A stretch of 64,000 nucleotides of DNA from an uncultured Myxococcales bacterium (GTDB taxonomy: Bacteria; Myxococcota_A; UBA9042), in NCBI GenBank assembly GCA_903842345.1, contig CAIMLR010000028.1, positions 1 through 64,000 of the forward strand, written 5' to 3'. Position 1 is the first letter of the stretch, and the number at the start of each line of letters is the position of its first letter. Below are positions 17,936 to 28,260 of the stretch, piece after piece. The notes beneath the pieces were generated by a model, which was not told where the DNA came from, did not search any database, and was given only the letters and a program-made list of their open reading frames with translations. Position numbers and translations under genes: made by a program.

Positions 17936-19198
17936 TTACCGGTCAAACTGCGGTGCCTCGGCGTGCGGCTGCGGGGACGGCTGCACCGGCATCTGCTCGG
18001 GCGGCGGCATCTGCTGCGGGGGCAGCTCGATCACGATCGCGTGCGGCTGCAGCGCTGTCGCCGCCGGAAAGTTGAAAGCGCGGCTCGCCGGTTCGCCATG
18101 CGCCGGCACACTCGCCCGCTCCGCTTGGCGTGGCGCGGGTCGGCCGTTGGCCACCACCGGCGCGGTCGCAACCGGCGGCAGGACCGCGGCTTCTGCCGGA
18201 ACTGCAATCGGTGCAGCGGGTTCCGCCTGAGGCGCGGCCATCGCCGGCACCGCAACGGGCACGGCCGCCGGAATCGGCTCCAGCGCCATACGGCCACCGG
18301 CATACTGCCAACGGTTGCCCGCCCGCACCATCGTCAGGGTGTCGCCCGGCGCCGCATACGGGTCATCGGCCTGATCGACGCGCACGGCGCCTTCGGTCAC
18401 CTGAACAACCACGCCGGAATCGTTCTCGTCGTGGCGGATCACAAAGCGCGTGCCAACGACCGACGCGCGGAAGCCCGCGAACATCACGCCGTAGCGCTGG
18501 CCCGGCTTCAACTTGTCCACCTGGCATTCCACTTCGCCGTGACGCAGCCGCAGGAACGCGTCCCGATCGGCCATCGCCAGCACGTCCAACTCCGTGTCCG
18601 GCGCCAATTGCAGTTCAAACCGCCCCGGCACCACCACGCGGGCCATCGGGCCTTTCGCCGTGGGCGTCCGCAAGCGGTGGCCAAAGCGAATCGTGTCGCC
18701 GCCCGTCAGCTTGCGCCAACGGCCATCCTGCGCCGCCACTTCCACGTTGCCCTCAACAAGGCTCGTCACCACGCCCGGGCCGGGATTGTCGACCGACGGC
18801 GCCGTGGCCTCGACGACAAGCTGCTGAAACGCAACCTGATTGCGGTGCGACTTCTCAAGGAACGGGAGCGCAACCGTGAAGACGAGCGCGGCCGCCGTCG
18901 CCAGCGCCAGCCCCCAGACAAAGCCCGGGGAAACCCGCGGCGGCTTCTGCCAGCGTCCGGACATCAAGTGCACGCGCTCGTCCAGGCTCTGGCGCTGCTC
19001 AGCAGTCAAGCCCGGCGCCCGGCCGCGCAGCAGGAGCGTTTGATAGCGGCGGACGTCATCGGCCACCGTGCGGCAGCTCGTGCAGGCATCCAAGTGCGCG
19101 TGCAGCAACGCGTCCGCGGGCGTCTCGCGATGCCGCGCGTCCAGCAGATCGAGCCATACGGTCGCGTCCGGACACGGGTTCTGATTCATCGTGCTCAT
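17936..19198 (-). CDS. Zinc-finger anti-sigma factor with FecR domain
   Basis: The 420-residue protein begins with a ZAS-type zinc site H35-x3-C39-x2-C42, which normally holds an ECF sigma factor inactive. A single membrane helix lies at about 95-113. The periplasmic part carries a FecR domain (about 150-255, with GDTIRFGHRLRTP, then ASVVGTRFVIRHDE) and a long Pro/Ala-rich tail. Its start overlaps the sigma gene stop by four bases, so the pair is made together. No TonB receptor gene is adjacent, so the signal sensed by the FecR domain is unlikely to be ordinary ferric-citrate-type transport; cell-envelope sensing is inferred. Confidence 0.8.
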   Translation of the reverse strand: MSTMNQNPCPDATVWLDLLDARHRETPADALLHAHLDACTSCRTVADDVRRYQTLLLRGRAPGLTAEQRQSLDERVHLMSGRWQKPPRVSPGFVWGLALATAAALVFTVALPFLEKSHRNQVAFQQLVVEATAPSVDNPGPGVVTSLVEGNVEVAAQDGRWRKLTGGDTIRFGHRLRTPTAKGPMARVVVPGRFELQLAPDTELDVLAMADRDAFLRLRHGEVECQVDKLKPGQRYGVMFAGFRASVVGTRFVIRHDENDSGVVVQVTEGAVRVDQADDPYAAPGDTLTMVRAGNRWQYAGGRMALEPIPAAVPVAVPAMAAPQAEPAAPIAVPAEAAVLPPVATAPVVANGRPAPRQAERASVPAHGEPASRAFNFPAATALQPHAIVIELPPQQMPPPEQMPVQPSPQPHAEAPQFDR

Positions 19199-19815
19199 TT
19201 GATCACCTGTAGCGCGTGGCTGGGCAGGACGCCCTTGGCGCGCGCCGCTTCAAAAACTTCCTGTCTCGCGTGAAATAGCCGCGATTTCACGGTATTGACG
19301 CCGATGTCGAGCGTTGTGGCGATTTCCTCGAGGGACATGCCCTCCAGCTCGTACAGGGCAAAGACCACATATTTCTTCTCGGAAATGTCGCCGAGGACGT
19401 CGTACAGGGCGCGGCATGTGTCGCGCGCCTCGATGCGACCTTCCGTATGCGTAGCGCGGCTTTGCGACTCCATCACGTTGTCGAGTCCAACCCAGCGCAG
19501 CCAGCCTTTGCGCCGCCCGCGCCGCAGGTACTGTAGCGCGACGTTGACGGTGATCCGGTGCAGCCACGTGGTGAAGCGCGAGTCGCCGCGAAAGCGGTAG
19601 AGCGCCCGCTGCAGTTCGATGAACACGTCCTGCACCACGTCCTCGAGCTCGCTCGACGCGCCCAGCAGGTTGCGCGCCACGGACTCCACGCGCCGACTGT
19701 GCCGCCGGTAGAGGTCGCTCAACGCGTGGCCATTGCCTCGCTGGTAGGCCAGAACGAGCGCTTGATCCTGCGCGTCGGATTCCAGGCGTTCGTCGCGATC
19801 GGGAACTATCGCCAT
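19195..19815 (-). CDS. ECF-family RNA polymerase sigma factor
   Basis: The 206-residue protein has sigma region 2 (LYRRHSRRVESVARNLL, then ELEDVVQDVFIELQRAL and FTTWLHRITVNVALQYLRR) and region 4 (YELEGMSLEEIATTLDIGVNTVKSRLFHARQEV). It should direct polymerase to a small regulon, probably including its own promoter. The ATG start was chosen over an upstream TTG because AGGTAA lies eight bases before it. It is co-transcribed with the FecR-type anti-sigma factor. The divergent neighbour is the cohesin-domain lipoprotein, a plausible target. Confidence 0.88.
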   Translation of the reverse strand: MAIVPDRDERLESDAQDQALVLAYQRGNGHALSDLYRRHSRRVESVARNLLGASSELEDVVQDVFIELQRALYRFRGDSRFTTWLHRITVNVALQYLRRGRRKGWLRWVGLDNVMESQSRATHTEGRIEARDTCRALYDVLGDISEKKYVVFALYELEGMSLEEIATTLDIGVNTVKSRLFHARQEVFEAARAKGVLPSHALQVIK

Positions 19816-19880
19816 GTTCGTTACCTGTGCCACTTGCGCCCAACGCCCGAGCAAGGCGCCCGGATTCGTCAGTTCTGTTG

Positions 19881-19893
19881 CCGCAGCCTGCGG
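19881..19893. promoter_or_regulatory. Perfect palindrome in the sigma/cohesin divergent region
   Basis: CCGCAGCCTGCGG has 6-bp arms around a single central base. It sits 66 bases before the sigma factor start and upstream of the cohesin gene promoter candidate. It could be an operator; no regulator is known. Confidence 0.3.
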
Positions 19894-19924
19894 AAAGGAT
19901 CAAACGGTCGTCCGCGGATAGTCG

Positions 19925-19953
19925 TTGCGACTGGCGAGCCATTCCGCTACTTT
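19925..19953 (+). promoter_or_regulatory. Candidate promoter of the cohesin/dockerin operon
   Basis: TTGCGA and TACTTT are spaced by 17 bases, about 58 bases before the lipoprotein ATG. Both elements are imperfect, so use by the housekeeping sigma is tentative. Confidence 0.35.
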
Positions 19954-20010
19954 GCGCGCGCCGTCCGGCTGTTTCGCCGCCCGGGCTTCTGTAGCGCGAG
20001 AGGACTTTCC

Positions 20011-20640
20011 ATGCAAGTTCAAAATGTTGCCGCCGCGGTACTGTTGGCGCTGACGCTGACGGCCTGTGGCGAAGATACGCCGACCCAGGGCGCCGCGGAC
20101 GTCGAATCCGCTGGCGCTGACACGGACGCGCAAGTTGCTCCGGCGACTGACGGTCCAGTCTTCCTGCCGACAGGCGGAACGGCGACGACGGGCGCGGTTT
20201 CGATCGCCGGCAGTTGGACCGACACGCAGCGCGTGCGCGTGGAGGTTGCGATCAACAACTTCACTGATCTCTTTGGCATTTCCGGGCACTTTCACTACGA
20301 CCCGGCGGTCCTGCAGATGACCTTGCTGCAAGCGAACGCTGTGCCGTTGGGCGTCAAGAAGGACACGAGCGACTACAAGCCGCGCGCGGTGGCCAAGGAA
20401 GCGCCGGCCGGGCGAATCCTGTTGGGCGGTGCGCGGTTCTCCAACATTCCATCGCCGTTTGACACGCCCGCGGGCGTCGCGGTCGGCCGGGAAGTCTGGC
20501 TCGTCCTGGAATTCACCGTGCTGCAGAAAGTGCCGACGACGCTCGCCTTTGACCCGAACACGCTGGTCGTGCGCAACGGCGCCTACACCGACGTGCCGAC
20601 CGATTGGGGCCAGTTGCAGATCACCTGGACCGGGAAGTGA
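20011..20640 (+). CDS. Lipoprotein with cohesin-type domain
   Basis: A lipoprotein signal peptide ends in LTAC (C19), then an acidic, Ala/Asp-rich linker leads to a beta-sandwich domain at about residues 55-209. Its pattern follows cohesins: RVRVEVAINNFTDLFGISGHFHYDPAVLQ corresponds in order and spacing to the strand pair and FxYDPxVL motif of type I cohesins, and the final strand is LQITW. Cohesins bind dockerin modules with calcium. The next gene, eight bases downstream, encodes a peptidase ending in a dockerin, so this lipoprotein would be the membrane-anchored receptor. GAGAGGA precedes the ATG. An unrelated Ig-like fold is the main alternative. Confidence 0.75.
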   Translation: MQVQNVAAAVLLALTLTACGEDTPTQGAADVESAGADTDAQVAPATDGPVFLPTGGTATTGAVSIAGSWTDTQRVRVEVAINNFTDLFGISGHFHYDPAVLQMTLLQANAVPLGVKKDTSDYKPRAVAKEAPAGRILLGGARFSNIPSPFDTPAGVAVGREVWLVLEFTVLQKVPTTLAFDPNTLVVRNGAYTDVPTDWGQLQITWTGK

Positions 20641-20648
20641 GGCGCACA

Positions 20649-22673
20649 ATGAACAAGATTCAGCACCTCATCCTTGGATTTTCCCTCTTCGCGACGCCCG
20701 TGCTGGCGGCGCCGGCCAACGCCAAGCTGCCCGCCTTCCTGGATGGCGCGGACATGCCGGTGTTGCCCGGCACGCCGTTTGCCCATGTGCGCGCGTGGCA
20801 CGAGCGCGAGGCGGCGCAGGCCCATCGGCAGTTGCCAGGCATGACGGATGCGACGGCTGCGCTGGGCGCCGCCAACTTCGCCAATCTTGGCGCGTCCGCG
20901 TGGACGGTGCTGGATCAGGACATCACGGTTGACCTCAACACCGCGACCGGGAACGTGACGACCGATTCGGTCCTGACGGTGCACGTTACCGACGGCGGCG
21001 TGAACCAGCTGATGTTCTACGGCGACAACGGCGAGATTTGGACCGTTATGAGCGCCGCCAACGTGGCGCTGAACACGAGCGTGGGCACGTTGGGCACGGC
21101 CAATTCCTCCTACACCGTGGAACTGCCCGCCGCGGCGACGCCCAACACGGATTTGCAGTTGAAGCTGCACCGCGTCGTCAAGCTGGCCTGTGGCCAAGGC
21201 TTTCAGGGTTTCTTGCAGTGCAACACGTCGGGCACTTACAAGTGGATGGCCGGCTCGGTCGGTGCCAATCCGTACAATGATGGCCACACGCCGTTCACGT
21301 CCAAGCTGCACATCAAGACCGCGGCGACGGAAGTGGCGGCGGCGACGGGCCTGCCCATGGGCGTGGACATCCTGCCCGACGGCCGGAAGCTGTGGCATTT
21401 TGACCAACCGGAGCGCAGTGAGCACAACGACGCGTTTGCGGTCGCGGCCTACAAGATGTTCGAGGGCAAGAGCGAGGACAACCAGCCGATCCGCATCTAC
21501 ACGACGAGCAACTACGCCAACAACGCCAGCACGATCGCCAAGTTCGTCAGCGATGTCCTGGCGTTCTACGGCTCGCACATGGCCAAATTCCCGTGGACGG
21601 ACTTGAATATGATCCAGCTGTCGGACAACTTCGGCGGCGGCGAGTCATTCCTGATGGGCATCTTCGCCATCCAGAGCGTCTTTGATGGGGCGCCGGACAA
21701 CAACGGCTGGCAGGAGACCAACTCGCTGCTCTCCCACGAAATCGCGCACCAGTGGTGGGGCAACGCCGTCGCGCCGCAAAGCCTGGGCGATGTCTGTCTG
21801 TCGGAGTCGATGGCCGAGTTCTCCAGCTGCTGGTACACCGAGATCGCGTTGGCCAACCGTTCGCAGATCCTGACCAACAACCTGAGCTTCGCCTACACGG
21901 TCGCGATTGCGGACGACAAGGCGGTCAATTCGCCCAGCGTCTACTCCGCGGCCAAGTACGTCGACATCATCTACCACAAGGGCGCGGTCGTGTTTGACAT
22001 GCTCCGGCGGGAAGTCGGCGACGCCGTGATGACCCAGGCGTTGACCGACTATACCGCGAAGTACGGCCGCGATTACGCGTCGTTGGCACAGTTGCGGGCG
22101 GTCGTGGAGAAGGCGTACGGCAAGGACCTGACGTGGTTCTTCACGCAGTGGTTCAGCCGCGTGGGCCTCATCCACGCGCAGGTCTCGGCGCGCTCGATTC
22201 ACCACGACGACGGCACGTGGAGCGTGCGCGTCCGCGTCGTGCAGCCGGCGGATCTCAAAATCAAGCCGTACCGCTTCCATCTGCCCGTGCACATCGAGAC
22301 TGTCGGCCACGCGCCGATCGACGTCGTCATGGACGTGCAGGCGATCGTCGACGCTCCGCAAGTGCAGGAATTCCCGGTCCCTTCCGCGCCGCTGCGGGTC
22401 AAGTGCGATTGGCAGCGGCAGCTGCTCCGCAAGTTCGTCGTCGGCACGCCGGGTGACGTCAACCTGAGCGGGCTGGTGGACGGCGCGGACCTCATTGACA
22501 TGGCCTATCGCCAGGGCCGTGGCGTCGTACACACCTATGGCAGCGGCAAAACTTTCTTTTTTCCAGACACCGCGTGGAACGAGCTCTACGATCTGACGGT
22601 CGATGGTCTCGTCGACGGCGACGATGCCAATGCCCTGAACGATTGGTTTGGGACCGAATCCGAGGAGTTTTAG
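20649..22673 (+). CDS. Secreted M1 metallopeptidase with C-terminal dockerin
   Basis: This is a 674-residue zinc aminopeptidase-type enzyme with a signal peptide (1-20). An N-terminal beta domain is followed by the gluzincin site: H363, E364, H367 in HEIAHQWWG and E386 exactly 18 residues later. GGGES (about 329-333) occupies the place of the GAMEN substrate motif, and YHKGAVVFDMLR is the usual M1 helix. After about residue 600 come two calcium-loop repeats: D603-VNLSGLVDGA-D614 and D648-LTVDGLVDGD-D659, the dockerin type I pattern. The preceding lipoprotein gene supplies a matching cohesin. Peptide or protein degradation at the cell surface is inferred; starting at this ATG gives a proper signal peptide. 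Confidence 0.85.
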   Translation: MNKIQHLILGFSLFATPVLAAPANAKLPAFLDGADMPVLPGTPFAHVRAWHEREAAQAHRQLPGMTDATAALGAANFANLGASAWTVLDQDITVDLNTATGNVTTDSVLTVHVTDGGVNQLMFYGDNGEIWTVMSAANVALNTSVGTLGTANSSYTVELPAAATPNTDLQLKLHRVVKLACGQGFQGFLQCNTSGTYKWMAGSVGANPYNDGHTPFTSKLHIKTAATEVAAATGLPMGVDILPDGRKLWHFDQPERSEHNDAFAVAAYKMFEGKSEDNQPIRIYTTSNYANNASTIAKFVSDVLAFYGSHMAKFPWTDLNMIQLSDNFGGGESFLMGIFAIQSVFDGAPDNNGWQETNSLLSHEIAHQWWGNAVAPQSLGDVCLSESMAEFSSCWYTEIALANRSQILTNNLSFAYTVAIADDKAVNSPSVYSAAKYVDIIYHKGAVVFDMLRREVGDAVMTQALTDYTAKYGRDYASLAQLRAVVEKAYGKDLTWFFTQWFSRVGLIHAQVSARSIHHDDGTWSVRVRVVQPADLKIKPYRFHLPVHIETVGHAPIDVVMDVQAIVDAPQVQEFPVPSAPLRVKCDWQRQLLRKFVVGTPGDVNLSGLVDGADLIDMAYRQGRGVVHTYGSGKTFFFPDTAWNELYDLTVDGLVDGDDANALNDWFGTESEEF

Positions 22674-22679
22674 CTTATC

Positions 22680-24035
22680 GTGACGATGCAACAACTTGAA
22701 AAACGCGTGCACATGGTGTCTCTCGGCTGCCCGAAGAACCGCGTGGACAGTGAGATCATGCTTGGCCAGGCGGCCGCCGCGGGCTACCAATTGACGGGCG
22801 ATGCCAGCGAGGCTGACCTGCTCATCGTCAACACCTGCGCCTTCATTGAGGATTCCAAGAAGGAGAGCGTCGGCGCGATCCTCGATCTCGCTGAAGTCAA
22901 AGCGCTGCGGCCGGGAACGCGGCTCGTCGTGGCGGGCTGCCTCGCACAGCGCCACGCGGAAGAGCTGGCGCTGGAGCTGCCTGAAGTTGACGTGTTCCTC
23001 GGCACGGGCGAGTACGACCATCTCGCGCAACGGCTCGGGCTGGACACCGGCATCGCCGTGCCGCAATCGGCGCGCAAGCCGCGGCCGGAATACATCGCCG
23101 ATCACCTGGAGCCGCGCTGGATCGCGCCCGAGAGCTTCTCGACGTACCTGAAGATCGCGGAAGGCTGCGATCAGGCGTGTTCCTTCTGCATCATTCCCAA
23201 GCTGCGCGGCGTGCAGCGCTCGCGGACCGTCGCGGATTGCGTGGCGGAAGCGCGGCAGTTGGTGGAGCGCGGCGTTGTGGAAATCAACCTCGTGGCGCAG
23301 GACTTGACGCACTACGGCGAGGATTTTCAGGATCCGGAGGCGCTGACCAAGCTGATCCGCGCGCTGGGCCACGTCGACGGGCTGCGCTGGGTGCGGCTGA
23401 TGTACGCGTATCCGCACAACGTGTCGGACGCGTTGTTGGACGCGATCGGCGAGACCGAGAACTGCGTCAAGTACATCGACATGCCGCTGCAGCACGCCAG
23501 CGATCGCGTGCTGACGTCCATGAAACGCAAGACGTCGCGCGCGGAGATCGAGGCGCTGCTGGCCAACATGCGGCGGCGGATTCCCGGGCTGACGCTGCGC
23601 ACGACGTTCCTTGTCGGCCATCCGGGCGAAGGCGAGGCGGACTTTCAGGAGCTGCTGGAATTCGTCAAGGAACAGCGCTTCCACCGCGCCGGTTGCTTTG
23701 CCTACAGCCGCGAGGACGGCACGCTGAGCGCGCGACTGGGCGACCAGGTGCCGACGGCGGTCAAGAAATCGCGCGTCAGCAAGATGATGAAAGTCCAGGC
23801 GGGCATCTCCAAGAAGCTGCTGGCTGGGATGATTGGTCAGGAACTGGACGTGCTGATCGAAGGCTTGAGCGACGAGACCGACCTGCTGCTGCAGGGCCGG
23901 ACGGCGGGGCAGGCGCCCGAGATCGATGGCGTTGTCTACATCAACGACGCGCCGGCGGACGTGGGCCGCGGGCAGATCCGCCGCGTGCACATTACGCAGG
24001 CGAGCGAACACGATCTGGTCGGCCACGTGGTTTGA
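22680..24035 (+). CDS. rimO: Ribosomal protein S12 methylthiotransferase
   Basis: RimO adds a methylthio group to the conserved aspartate of ribosomal protein S12 using radical SAM chemistry. The 451 residues show the UPF0004 domain with three cluster cysteines (C17, C53, C87). The radical SAM motif is C163-x3-C167-x2-C170, and a C-terminal TRAM domain is present. The N-terminal VSLGCPKNRVDSE motif distinguishes RimO from MiaB. Length is normal. The GTG is used; an ATG two codons later is equally possible. It follows the peptidase gene by six bases and may be read from the same transcript. Confidence 0.93.
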   Translation: MTMQQLEKRVHMVSLGCPKNRVDSEIMLGQAAAAGYQLTGDASEADLLIVNTCAFIEDSKKESVGAILDLAEVKALRPGTRLVVAGCLAQRHAEELALELPEVDVFLGTGEYDHLAQRLGLDTGIAVPQSARKPRPEYIADHLEPRWIAPESFSTYLKIAEGCDQACSFCIIPKLRGVQRSRTVADCVAEARQLVERGVVEINLVAQDLTHYGEDFQDPEALTKLIRALGHVDGLRWVRLMYAYPHNVSDALLDAIGETENCVKYIDMPLQHASDRVLTSMKRKTSRAEIEALLANMRRRIPGLTLRTTFLVGHPGEGEADFQELLEFVKEQRFHRAGCFAYSREDGTLSARLGDQVPTAVKKSRVSKMMKVQAGISKKLLAGMIGQELDVLIEGLSDETDLLLQGRTAGQAPEIDGVVYINDAPADVGRGQIRRVHITQASEHDLVGHVV

Positions 24036-24089
24036 CACGTCCGGCAGCGCCGCACAGACTGACAGCGACTTCAGCGGGTCAGGAGAAGC

Positions 24090-24701
24090 GTGAATCACGT
24101 CCCGAGACAACCCATTGTGCTGCTGCTCCTGCTGGTGGCTGGCTGCGCCAAGACGTCAGCGAACCAAACGCCGCCGCCGATCGCCGGGCTGTGGCATCCC
24201 GCGGCGGTGCGGCTGGGGCAGGAAGTCGTGCTGGACGCGAGTTCGACGGCGATCGGCAAGGCGCCCGACAGCGATCCCGGAATCGCCGGCACACGCGTCA
24301 CCGGCTTCCGTTTTGAAATTGCCACCTTCGCCGCGGTCGATCGCAGCGGCCCGACGCTCGCCTGGACGTTTTTCGCGCCGGGCCACTATGCGCTGCGGCT
24401 TGTCGTGACGGACGATCTGGGCCGCCAGAGCAGCGTGGATTCCGCGATCGACGTCGTCGCCGATCTCGCGGACGCATGCACGGGCACGATCGCGGACGCG
24501 TGCAGCGCCGGGGTCTGTGCCAGCGGCCAATGCGCGACGTTCGCGTGTGCGGGCGATCCGGCCTGTCCGGCGTTCAACGGCCACGCGCTCACCTGCGATC
24601 GCGGCACTTGCAGCTTGTCGCCTGCGCCGTCGGCCACGGATGACGCCTATTCGGGCGACGACGTCCCACTGATTGGCCCAGCCGATGCGGGATCACCTTG
24701 A
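24090..24701 (+). CDS. Lipoprotein with PKD-like domain and Cys-rich tail
   Basis: The 203-residue protein has a lipobox VAGC (C19) after a short hydrophobic stretch. Residues 30-125 resemble a PKD-type Ig fold (RLGQEVVLDASS, then FFAPGHYALRLVVTDDLGR), a module used for carbohydrate or protein contact outside cells. The C-terminal part has eight cysteines in short loops (about 129-171), then a low-complexity acidic tail. The GTG start follows AGGAGAAG. No enzyme motif is present. It may be co-transcribed with rimO (54-base gap). Surface location is inferred. Confidence 0.7.
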   Translation: MNHVPRQPIVLLLLLVAGCAKTSANQTPPPIAGLWHPAAVRLGQEVVLDASSTAIGKAPDSDPGIAGTRVTGFRFEIATFAAVDRSGPTLAWTFFAPGHYALRLVVTDDLGRQSSVDSAIDVVADLADACTGTIADACSAGVCASGQCATFACAGDPACPAFNGHALTCDRGTCSLSPAPSATDDAYSGDDVPLIGPADAGSP

Positions 24702-24726
24702 CGGGGTGGCCAAAATACCGTAAGTT
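24698..24726 (+). promoter_or_regulatory. Promoter of rpsT
   Basis: TTGACG and TAAGTT with a 17-base spacer lie over the stop codon of the preceding gene. The -35 hexamer is identical to that of the tRNA promoter at 2262. The predicted leader is about 85 bases long and contains two palindromes. Confidence 0.65.
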
Positions 24727-24751
24727 TCCGGCCCCGTGTGTGCGCTTTGTC

Positions 24752-24792
24752 GCCCGTACGGGCAGAACAAACCCGTTGATTCACCTGTGAAT
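24752..24792 (+). promoter_or_regulatory. Two palindromes in the rpsT leader
   Basis: GCCCGTACGGGC (24752-24763) is a perfect 12-bp palindrome, and ATTCAC-CT-GTGAAT (24779-24792) has 6-bp arms. They lie between the promoter and the GTG start. S20 represses its own translation in E. coli, so an autoregulatory or operator role is plausible but unproven here. Confidence 0.4.
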
Positions 24793-24819
24793 TGACTGCC
24801 TTATGTGAGCGAGGAACCT

Positions 24820-25077
24820 GTGGCCAACCATCCGTCCGCTGAAAAGCGCGCCAAGCAGAACATCAAGCGCCGCGATCGCAATCGCGCCGGCCGTGCGACC
24901 AACCGCACTGCCGTCAAGAAGCTCACCCTCGCCATCGGCGAAGGCAAGGGCGCTGAATTGTTCTCCGCCACCGCTTCGCAGCTCGCGGGCAGCGCCGCCA
25001 AGGGCGTCATCCCCAAGAAGCGCGCGGCGCGCAAGATCGGCCGCCTCGCCAAAGCGTTGCACGCTGCCGCCAAGTAG
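24820..25077 (+). CDS. rpsT: Small ribosomal subunit protein bS20
   Basis: The 85-residue basic protein binds 16S rRNA early in 30S assembly. The start (M)ANHPSAEKRAKQNIKRRDRNR is the signature of S20, and the helix ending VIPKKRAARKIGRLAKAL matches the C-terminus. The GTG was chosen because it gives the conserved MANH start and follows GAGGAA; the frame could extend 15 bases upstream but that part is not conserved. Length fits the family (85-90). It has its own promoter and leader. Confidence 0.96.
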   Translation: MANHPSAEKRAKQNIKRRDRNRAGRATNRTAVKKLTLAIGEGKGAELFSATASQLAGSAAKGVIPKKRAARKIGRLAKALHAAAK

Positions 25078-25102
25078 GTCTGGGGCTCATCCCCGGCCAC
25101 GG

Positions 25103-25153
25103 TGCGGATCGGTGTGAAATTCGGGCGACTTCGCCCCACGCCGTCGATCCGCA
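25103..25153 (+). promoter_or_regulatory. Long nested stem-loop after rpsT
   Basis: TGCGGATCG pairs with CGATCCGCA. Inside, GGTGTG can pair with CACGCC, and GGGCGA with TCGCCC at the tip. A smaller hairpin GGGG-CTCAT-CCCC precedes it (25082-25094). No T-run follows, so it may be a 3' end-stabilising or Rho-associated structure for rpsT, or a 5' leader element of the next gene, whose ATG starts 15 bases later. Confidence 0.5.
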
Positions 25154-25168
25154 TCACAGGAATTTGCC

Positions 25169-25879
25169 ATGGCTGCAAGTGCCGCAGCGGTGCCTGTCGG
25201 GCTTGAACTGCTCGACCACCTCTGTCGTGTCGCCGCGGCTGCATCTCCCGCAGCGCGCGGCTTGATCAGCACTGCCACGTCCGGTTTGCTCGGGCGCGGT
25301 TGGCTGCCATCGGTCGATTCGCTGATCGAGACCACGTCCCATAGCCTCGACATCGCCCCAGCCGATCTGCGCGCTGAACTGCCGTGGCTGCAGGAAACGG
25401 GGCTCCTGGAGATCGCCGACAACCGCGTCCTGTCGCTGGGCTGCCTGTTCGCGACGCGCAAGACGGGGCTGACGCTCACGCTCGATGAAAAGCACGCCGT
25501 CGACCTGCTGGGTCCGCTGGCTGCGCTCGCCGCGCCGGTCGCACTCCAGCACGCGGGTGCGATCCGCGGGCGTTGTGCGCAATCCCCGGATAGTGCGTTC
25601 CAACTGTTGGCCGACGAGGAAGGCGTGCATTCGCGGGATCCGGCCGGCGTGGCGCTGTTCCTGCCGGCGTGGCAGCCGGGGCAGCGCCCGACGCAAGTGA
25701 TGGGTGCCGGCGTGTTCCTGGCCGACGACGACGCGCTCTCGGACTGGCAAAGCCAGCACGGCGAACCGCAAGGGATGCCCGTGCTTGGGATGTTCTTTGC
25801 GATGGCCGCAGGTGATCTGGGTGTGAAATTGGGCACCGCGCTGGCGCCGCTCTTCAATCATTTGCCCGATTTTGACTGA
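25169..25879 (+). CDS. Uncharacterised protein, weakly MerB-like
   Basis: The 236-residue soluble protein has no signal peptide. Residues 40-90 look like a small winged-helix segment (PADLRAELPWLQETGLLEI). The later order of elements, KHAVDLLG, then HSRDPAGVALFLP, then GAGVFLADDDALSDWQSQHG, and a final helix, loosely follows organomercurial lyase (MerB). The catalytic cysteine position appears to be histidine (H109-A-V-D) while the aspartate is kept, so C-Hg cleavage is unlikely. The similarity is from memory of the fold pattern and is weak. It converges on the next gene with a 22-bp overlap of coding ends. GAATTTGCC precedes the ATG without a strong ribosome binding site. Confidence 0.55.
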   Translation: MAASAAAVPVGLELLDHLCRVAAAASPAARGLISTATSGLLGRGWLPSVDSLIETTSHSLDIAPADLRAELPWLQETGLLEIADNRVLSLGCLFATRKTGLTLTLDEKHAVDLLGPLAALAAPVALQHAGAIRGRCAQSPDSAFQLLADEEGVHSRDPAGVALFLPAWQPGQRPTQVMGAGVFLADDDALSDWQSQHGEPQGMPVLGMFFAMAAGDLGVKLGTALAPLFNHLPDFD

Positions 25880-28119
25880 TTGACCGAGATGGCAGGCAGC
25901 GATCGCGGCGTGTGCACGCGCGGCAGCCGCACCCCTTCGCGCCGCCGCCACTCGGCCACCAGCGACGGCGGCACGGACGCTTCTGCGATCAGCCGCGTCA
26001 AGAGCGCCACGTGCGGGACTTCCACGTCGATCGCGTAGCGCCACATCACCTGCCGCGCCGATTCCCGCGCCGTGTACGGCAACGCCACCAGCGACCGCGT
26101 CGCGACTTGATCCAGCAGCGGCAGCGCGTTGGCCGTCTGGCCGTGCATCAGCAGCCGGCGCGCCCACAGCGATTGCGCGACCGGATCGTCGGGCAACGCG
26201 ATGAACAGCCGCTCCAGCACCGCATCCGCGCCGCCCGGCACCGGGTGCGCGCCCGTCAGCCACAGGGATTCCAGCGCTTCCCGCGCCGCCGGTTCGTGGG
26301 CGAGATGCAGCTTGACCTCAAGGGTTCGGAGCATCGGCTCGGCGACCGGGCGCGCCGCCACATCCTGCCACAACGCCTCCGCCGCGTGGATTTGCCCTTG
26401 CCGCCACAGCAAATCCGCGCGCGCGGCATCGACGACCGCGCGCAACAGGGGATGGAGCTTCAGCGCGCCCGACCGTTGGCCCAGCGACTCGAGCTCCGCG
26501 ATTGCCGCGTGAATCTCGCCCGCCTGCGCCAGATCGTCGGCCAGATCGAGGTGCAGTTCAGGGTCATCCATGCCGTGCGCCACCCACGTGTCGATCGCCG
26601 CCAGCAGCTTGCGACGCACGGCCACGGCGCGCCGCGGCTGATTCAGCGCCGCCAGCCGATCCGCGCGTTGGCATGCGCGCCCGGTTTCCAGCGCGCACGG
26701 CTTCTCAAACAGCCCCGGACGCGCGAACCGCAGGCGCGCCCGCATCAGGTCCTCGTCCGACAGCGGATGCAGGTGCGGATCATCGACGAATTGGCCCCAC
26801 GCCGCCGCCAGCGTCGCCAGCGATTGGCCCGTGACGGCCTCCAGCGCCTCGCCCGCGTAGACGTGCCGCACGACCGGCCATCCGCGCGTTTCGCCCAGCC
26901 ACCGCAGGAATGACCCGGCCACGGTGTAGGCGCGGTCGCTCTGCTGGCCCAGAAAACCAGTCAACGACCACAGTTGCGCGATGTCCGGGGCCAGCCCGGC
27001 TTGCCGCATGGCGCGGGTCCATTGGTGCGGGTCCAGGTTGCCGCGAATCGGCCACTCCATCGCCACGGCCAGCCCTTCGATCGCGACGGCGTCCGGAATC
27101 ACCCCGTAGCGCAGCGGAATCCCCAGCGGCGACTGCGCCCACTCCGCGGCAAAAACGTGCGCCAGCTCGTGGGTCAGCGTCGTCGAGCCGATGTCCGGCA
27201 GCACCATGTGCACCTGACGCAGCCACGGTTTGGCCATGTCCACGCGGTTGGCGCCCATCAGGCGCTGCTTCTGGCCGGCGTTCTGATAGAAATACAACTG
27301 GATCGGCTGATCCGGCCGCGTGCCAAAGGCCTGCGCCAGTTCGCCAAAGCGAAACGCCACGTCCGTCCGCCACAAGTCGAGGTTCTGATCGACCGCGAGC
27401 GTGTCCGGCAAGTGGATCTGGAACTGATCGCCAACGTGCGTTTCCTGCGTCAAGGTCTGGTCCAGGGTGCGAATGCGCCATGCCAGCGGATCGGCCGCCA
27501 GCAGCAACGTGACCGCCAGCGCGCCCTGCGCGAGCACCAGACCGCGCGTCCAGCGCGGCCGCGGCACCACGACGACCGGCAGCCACAGCAGCAGATCAAA
27601 AAGGCGAAACGTGAGGTACGGCGCCTGGATCGCCACCGCATCTTCGTACAGCGCGCCGGCGACGTAGCCGACAAGACCGTGGTAGGCGAACACTTGCGGC
27701 GTCGTCAGGAAATGCAGGAGAGGCGGGAACGCGGAGAGCAGGGCGCCCAGCCACGCGGCCACACGCGGGTGGGACGGCAGCACCAGCTGCCCGAGGCGCG
27801 CCCAGGCAACGCCGACAAACGCCGAGCAGACCGGGCCAAGCGCATAGAACTTCAGGCCATAGGCGCGGTTGCAGTTGGGCACGAACAGGCTGCCGACGAG
27901 CAGGACCACGAGCGGCGACGCCACGAGCAACAGCCAGCGGCGCCAGAGCGGCCTGGGCTGCAGCGCCAGTGCCAGCGCGCCCAAGCCGACAACGGGTGCC
28001 AGCGCGAGCGAGGCGTGGTAATCGAGCGCGCCCCACGTCGGCGAGGCGAGCAGGGCGACCGCGAGCAGCGTCGGCGGGAGCAGGGGAAGGTGGGGCTGGA
28101 GGTCGCGCAGGCGCTTCAT
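25858..28119 (-). CDS. Polytopic membrane metallopeptidase with TPR-like tail
   Basis: The 753-residue protein has seven or so hydrophobic segments in residues 10-230. A gluzincin metallopeptidase domain follows with H317, E318, H321 (HELAHVF) and E348 in AIEGLAVAMEW. This arrangement fits the peptidase MA family. The last 300 residues are helical repeats of TPR type (LHLDLADDLAQAGEIHAAIAELESLG). It probably acts on proteins near the inner membrane, with the repeats recruiting partners. The ATG gives a basic start directly before the first membrane helix; the open frame continues far upstream but antisense to the cyclase gene. No substrate can be named. Confidence 0.75.
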   Translation of the reverse strand: MKRLRDLQPHLPLLPPTLLAVALLASPTWGALDYHASLALAPVVGLGALALALQPRPLWRRWLLLVASPLVVLLVGSLFVPNCNRAYGLKFYALGPVCSAFVGVAWARLGQLVLPSHPRVAAWLGALLSAFPPLLHFLTTPQVFAYHGLVGYVAGALYEDAVAIQAPYLTFRLFDLLLWLPVVVVPRPRWTRGLVLAQGALAVTLLLAADPLAWRIRTLDQTLTQETHVGDQFQIHLPDTLAVDQNLDLWRTDVAFRFGELAQAFGTRPDQPIQLYFYQNAGQKQRLMGANRVDMAKPWLRQVHMVLPDIGSTTLTHELAHVFAAEWAQSPLGIPLRYGVIPDAVAIEGLAVAMEWPIRGNLDPHQWTRAMRQAGLAPDIAQLWSLTGFLGQQSDRAYTVAGSFLRWLGETRGWPVVRHVYAGEALEAVTGQSLATLAAAWGQFVDDPHLHPLSDEDLMRARLRFARPGLFEKPCALETGRACQRADRLAALNQPRRAVAVRRKLLAAIDTWVAHGMDDPELHLDLADDLAQAGEIHAAIAELESLGQRSGALKLHPLLRAVVDAARADLLWRQGQIHAAEALWQDVAARPVAEPMLRTLEVKLHLAHEPAAREALESLWLTGAHPVPGGADAVLERLFIALPDDPVAQSLWARRLLMHGQTANALPLLDQVATRSLVALPYTARESARQVMWRYAIDVEVPHVALLTRLIAEASVPPSLVAEWRRREGVRLPRVHTPRSLPAISVNQSKSGK

Positions 28120-28260
28120 GGGCCGAAGCGTCGCCGAAGTGAGGTCGTCTGTCACGGCGGATCGCCCCACTGGTCTTGCGCCCGGCCTCAGTGTACGATC
28201 GAATGCTGGCTGTCTGACGCGTCGTGTGTCAGCGATTTTCCGTGTGCAAGTGAGACGACC

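Follow-up and report, generated by a model that had tools for sequence, protein, structure and literature searches.

The type I/II cohesin-dockerin interactions of clostridial cellulosomes, with proteins such as ScaB, SdbA and OlpA, offer a close point of comparison for the locus described here, which appears to share with them the cohesin fold, two 12-residue calcium-type dockerin loops and one partner attached to the cell. Non-cellulosomal cohesins and dockerins are listed in many genomes, often with no assignable partner. Peer et al. reportedly dealt with such non-cellulosomal cohesin and dockerin modules in 2009. Single cohesins or dockerins exist outside cellulosomes, for example in Archaeoglobus fulgidus, and the archaeal versions are reported to bind (PMC9012536). 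Dockerin-bearing peptidases are also on record, from Ruminococcus flavefaciens and Clostridium thermocellum (PMC2930009, PMC12484212) and from Ca. Stygibacter (PMC8542988). One of them, a cysteine peptidase from R. flavefaciens, attaches to the cohesin of ScaE, which serves as a surface anchor (PMC12484212). Here, we analyze two adjacent genes of an uncultured Myxococcales bacterium, contained in a 64,000-nucleotide stretch of DNA (the window). In our judgement they probably constitute a docking unit, in which a lipid-anchored cohesin receptor (P0001) holds an exported M1 peptidase (P0002) that clips on by its dockerin-like domain.

The cohesin lipoprotein

Both genes lie on the + strand, separated by 8 bases (Table 1). 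P0001 begins with ATG at 20011 and ends with a stop codon at 20638-20640; P0002 begins with ATG at 20649 and ends with a stop at 22671-22673. The first-pass annotation had given the same overall span (20011-22673) and the same gap, and both are correct.

Table 1. Features of the cohesin/M1 peptidase locus, in window coordinates
Feature	Position	Strand	Basis
Cohesin lipoprotein gene (P0001, 209 aa)	20011..20640	+	ORF; orthologues in 20/22 genomes of the order
Lipoprotein signal peptide with lipobox LTAC (residues 16-19, Cys19)	20011..20067	+	Read from sequence
Cohesin domain, as modelled, about residues 49-209	20155..20637	+	AlphaFold2 model; Foldseek
Gene for M1 metallopeptidase with C-terminal dockerin-like domain (P0002, 674 aa)	20649..22673	+	Pfam Peptidase_M1; cohesin gene adjacent in relatives
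Probable Sec signal peptide, about residues 1-21, MNKIQHLILGFSLFATPVLAA	20649..20711	+	Read from sequence
GGGES replacing the GxMEN exopeptidase motif, about residues 330-334	21636..21650	+	Motif comparison of paired peptidases
Zinc site HEIAH-(18)-E: H363, E364, H367, E386	21735..21806	+	HExxH...E in 46/46 paired peptidases
Dockerin-like domain, residues 594-674	22428..22670	+	Alignment A3; PDB profile matches
Calcium-loop-like repeat 1, DVNLSGLVDGAD, residues 603-614	22455..22490	+	D603, L606, G608, D611, G612, D614 invariant (A2)
Calcium-loop-like repeat 2, DLTVDGLVDGDD, residues 648-659	22590..22625	+	D648, D659 invariant (A2)

P0001 has a simple architecture: a lipobox, then a linker of ~30 residues, then one beta-sandwich domain at about residues 49-206. 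The signal peptide and the lipobox Cys mark the protein as a bacterial lipoprotein, and Cys19 is nearly invariant among 21 orthologues (alignment A1). Taken alone, P0001 reaches 16.7 bits (E=0.0087) with the Pfam Cohesin model (PF00963), below the gathering cut-off of 24.1; two relatives from the same class exceed that cut-off, at 25.3 and 30.0 bits. When the profile of the 21 orthologues (A1) was compared with the PDB using hmmsearch, the best eight matches were all solved cohesins (top E=2.3e-7), the first being ScaB of Acetivibrio cellulolyticus, aligned over profile positions 78-209. In the AlphaFold2 model of P0001, block means are mostly >90 pLDDT across the cohesin domain. All 50 PDB matches listed by Foldseek for this model are cohesins, cellulosomal and non-cellulosomal alike, with a best value of 5.2e-7. 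We accept the domain as a cohesin, with a predicted jelly-roll fold. The first-pass annotation had described a lipoprotein whose only domain has the strand pattern of a cohesin and had staked that view on a significant cohesin match; the lipobox and the single beta-sandwich domain agree with the description, and significant matches came from both the A1 profile and the Foldseek matches listed.

The dockerin-binding face of P0001 was set by strand register with a C. thermocellum cohesin, using the contact residues of that cohesin, and is our assumption. Residues placed on this presumed face, in strands b3 and b6, have a conservation of 0.64, compared with 0.64 for the core and 0.48 for all positions. 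H93 and R142 are among the conserved outward residues of the two strands. A conserved outward face on strands 3 and 6 fits a conserved partner there. It is conceivable, though highly improbable to our minds, that P0001 exists to inhibit or chaperone this one peptidase, with the dockerin as a handle and anchoring as a secondary matter. Strict 1:1 adjacency, as found for these genes, is generally typical of enzyme-inhibitor and enzyme-chaperone pairs too; however, P0001 shows just a linker and a cohesin, with no extra inhibitory domain.

The peptidase and its dockerin-like C-terminus

P0002 matches Pfam Peptidase_M1 (PF01433) with E=1.9e-19, and its catalytic Tyr is present (Y442, alignment A2). 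In M1 aminopeptidases, the GxMEN motif holds the amino end of the substrate. The GGGES that replaces it in P0002 is limited to the window's genus, most other paired peptidases having GGGYA or GAAFG-like sequences instead; another M1 peptidase of the window's genome carries GGMEN. Judged by these motifs, P0002 is a member of the M1 family that lies outside the GxMEN aminopeptidase group, and the missing GxMEN speaks against aminopeptidase activity of the usual kind. Because the zinc site is kept and GxMEN is absent, the docked enzyme is likely to be active as a zinc peptidase, with a specificity that is out of the ordinary.

The last 81 residues of P0002 have a mean column identity of 63%, versus 50% for the whole peptidase, across 20 orthologues. 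Since this segment is conserved in all 20, with D603, D611, D614, D648 and D659 invariant, the two loops are more than a chance resemblance. The best three matches of the A3 profile in the PDB are dockerins (top 1.1e-4), and 15 of the 20 members of A3 match Dockerin_1 (PF00404) at E<=1, the best at 4.5e-4. The Pfam scan of the window's own P0002 gave no Dockerin_1 match. One class relative (L134) passes, scoring 24.2 bits where 22.9 are required. The loops are 45 residues apart in the window, compared with a canonical 34 in other families of the class (L126, for example); the insert behind the longer spacing is common to most of the order, and this spacing is probably the reason that Pfam misses the window's dockerin. 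The Pfam check proposed in the first-pass annotation thus has a divided outcome, with Cohesin below its cut-off and Dockerin_1 unmatched in the window, and class relatives passing both.

The two 12-residue F-hand loops are present as a sequence pattern, and by that pattern would be expected to bind calcium. An AlphaFold model of the isolated domain is poor (pLDDT 56), and its Foldseek matches were discarded as meaningless. We call the C-terminus dockerin-like, a class assigned from sequence that stops short of Pfam-level membership in the window. That P0002 is an M1 metallopeptidase ending in two calcium-loop repeats had been noted before, and the PF01433 match and the loops at 603-614 and 648-659 bear this out. 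The further claim, that the repeats have the dockerin type I form, stands as to the two 12-residue loops and does not as to the Dockerin_1 score in the window or the spacing (45 versus ~34). The final residue of P0002, Phe674 (22668-22670), shows no variation among the 20 orthologues aligned.

Where the two proteins would meet is a separate matter. P0002 has a Sec-type signal only, with no outer-membrane export domain recognized, and the lipoprotein signal of P0001 does not by itself fix the membrane face. Docking might accordingly take place inside the envelope, the lipoprotein retaining the peptidase on the periplasmic face with no surface device. This alternative overlaps with the docking unit and differs from it in location; we consider it a genuine possibility, albeit not the one we favor. 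Characterized cohesin-dockerin pairs, on the other hand, are mostly extracellular (e.g. PMC9012536). Protein export is also common among the Myxococcota. Both are general points, not specific to P0001 and P0002.

Genomic pairing across the Myxococcota

The cohesin lipoprotein is encoded in 20 of the 22 genomes of the order, and at all cohesin loci there (21/21) an M1 gene lies directly downstream on the same strand. A dockerin is visible in 20 of these 21 M1 genes, the remaining one being cut by a contig end. The wider class adds 13 cohesin loci; an M1-dockerin gene adjoins the cohesin at 12 of them, and the other is at a contig end. Sixteen cohesin loci came from the rest of the phylum, chosen by cohesin profile only and blind to M1: 13 adjoin an M1-dockerin gene, one adjoins an M1 gene cut by a contig end, and two have no such neighbor. 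The scan of the genome collection used the dockerin alignment as query. Gene order varies, with the cohesin first in the order and several other families and the M1 gene first in a large set of others; on a tree of the M1 core, this reversal needs one or two switches. The pair persists despite reversed gene order and loss of other neighbors. This genomic pairing of cohesin and M1-dockerin is the strongest evidence for the docking unit. A survey of relatives for kept pairing, put forward in the first-pass annotation, is largely in favor, the exceptions being additional M1-dockerin paralogues, one in each of two genomes (L132 and L134).

These paralogues (L132, 485-2392 +; L134, 3741-5672 +) have no adjacent cohesin, and the genomes that carry them also carry a full cohesin/M1 pair. 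Perhaps the product of each also docks on the receptor of the full pair. They are also compatible with the genes being linked in function and the two domains not being mutual binders: the cohesin fold would recognize something else, for instance a carbohydrate, and the role of the calcium loops would be limited to stabilizing the peptidase. Both domains diverge from characterized families, and docking itself is proposed by analogy, which favors this alternative to some degree. We nevertheless find it unlikely, given that the cohesin fold is recurrently paired with the dockerin-loop M1 and that cohesin and dockerin distances are correlated once the M1-core distance is removed (partial Mantel r=0.41, permutation p=0.001). 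As a test of co-evolution, this correlation is supportive but imperfect, in that shared ancestry is not fully removed. A further M1-dockerin gene free of a cohesin (L133) is in a locus that stops at a contig end.

Profile searches of the window's genome gave one full-length cohesin match and one significant dockerin-like (A3) match. The genome encodes three M1 peptidases, and the dockerin-like domain was found only on the one adjacent to the cohesin. A single receptor with a single dockerin peptidase had been suggested from the window, and the genome-wide profile counts agree. Pfam Cohesin and Dockerin_1 searches of the same genome returned nothing at E<=0.001; they also miss P0001 and P0002, so these empty searches only show how divergent the window's pair is. 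A cellulosome, with a scaffoldin of several cohesins and many dockerin enzymes, was considered and set aside, the genome having one cohesin and one dockerin-like match. Two pairs each are seen in two other genomes, G008 (L038, L044) and G336 (L192, L194). Elsewhere in the phylum, a cohesin-domain protein (L199:6207-6812; Pfam 34 bits) has a weak PEP-CTERM match and no M1 neighbor, and is a different use of cohesin within the Myxococcota. A GTDB record titled Klebsiella pneumoniae (L147, CAMDBH010000023.1) carries a Myxococcota locus whose coordinates match those of G009, a member of the window's family, so the title looks wrong.

The pair is part of a block (17936-25879) that also contains genes for an ECF sigma factor, FecR, rimO, a PKD lipoprotein, rpsT and a MerB-like gene, in an order kept across much of the taxonomic order. 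The first-pass annotation had raised the idea that the ECF sigma/FecR genes control the pair. This is not supported: the association is local synteny only, kept within the order along with rimO, the PKD lipoprotein and rpsT, and in the loci examined outside the order neither ECF/FecR nor rimO was found beside the pair. When the sequence upstream of the cohesin gene was searched with a simple pattern, no ECF-type promoter common to the genus emerged. Also in the window, a long ORF on the - strand (25858-28137) contains a HELAH motif (THELAHVF) and possibly encodes another metallopeptidase.

The proposed docking unit and known systems

The docking unit is built on what computation shows: a lipobox and a cohesin fold in P0001, a zinc site and dockerin-type loops in P0002, and phylum-wide co-occurrence and adjacency. 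After export and lipidation on Cys19, P0001 would sit in a membrane, the outer one being the likeliest, and the ~30-residue linker would hold out its one cohesin domain. P0002 would be exported by Sec as an M1 zinc peptidase. We expect the dockerin-like domain of P0002 to fold with two calcium ions at its center and to clip onto the cohesin of P0001, and the outcome would be a 1:1 membrane-tethered peptidase. Binding, calcium dependence and tethering are drawn from established cohesin/dockerin biology. Against the docking unit we count the poor dockerin model (pLDDT 56), the Pfam cut-offs that neither domain of the window reaches, the spacing of 45 rather than 34 residues, and the L132 and L134 genes.

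A search of the open literature, with subscription papers outside its scope, found no description of a Myxococcota cohesin/M1-dockerin pair. As far as open papers show, the new elements are a conserved gene pair of one receptor and one enzyme, an M1 peptidase that lacks GxMEN, and a long-spaced dockerin. We lean, with some reserve, towards viewing this minimal system, a lipid-anchored receptor plus a dedicated M1-type peptidase that has lost the aminopeptidase motif, as an envelope device of ancient origin, inherited widely within the Myxococcota. If this is true, the cohesin-dockerin snap-fit has a use in diderm bacteria that has nothing to do with polysaccharide breakdown, as a tether for a single enzyme. 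The partner is here suggested by the genome itself, a cohesin and a dockerin peptidase standing side by side repeatedly across the phylum, which opens stand-alone cohesin-dockerin pairs to direct tests of what they do. The divergent dockerin also offers a natural 1:1 pair for comparison with clostridial pairs.

Compared with the clostridial cellulosome, the Myxococcota pair comprises one cohesin and one enzyme; neither a multi-cohesin scaffoldin nor a carbohydrate-active enzyme was found. It differs further in having a lipid anchor in a diderm organism and a longer dockerin, whose loops are 45 residues apart. The dockerin-bearing peptidases of R. flavefaciens, C. thermocellum and Ca. Stygibacter belong to multi-enzyme complexes and are of several types, among them cysteine, S8 and C25, and the accessible text of those reports presents none as an M1 peptidase or as a stand-alone two-gene pair. 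The cohesin of the Clostridium perfringens family 33 glycoside hydrolase (2vo8, 2jh2) is likewise non-cellulosomal, and its solved fold matches the P0001 model with TMt up to 0.72. There, the cohesin is within the enzyme, whereas in the Myxococcota it is a lipoprotein of its own and the enzyme bears the dockerin. Like these bacteria, A. fulgidus has stand-alone modules, and its cohesin (2xdh) is among the Foldseek matches listed for P0001. In contrast to the archaeal modules, those of the Myxococcota form a fixed two-gene pair that persists across a phylum of bacteria and serves a single M1 peptidase.
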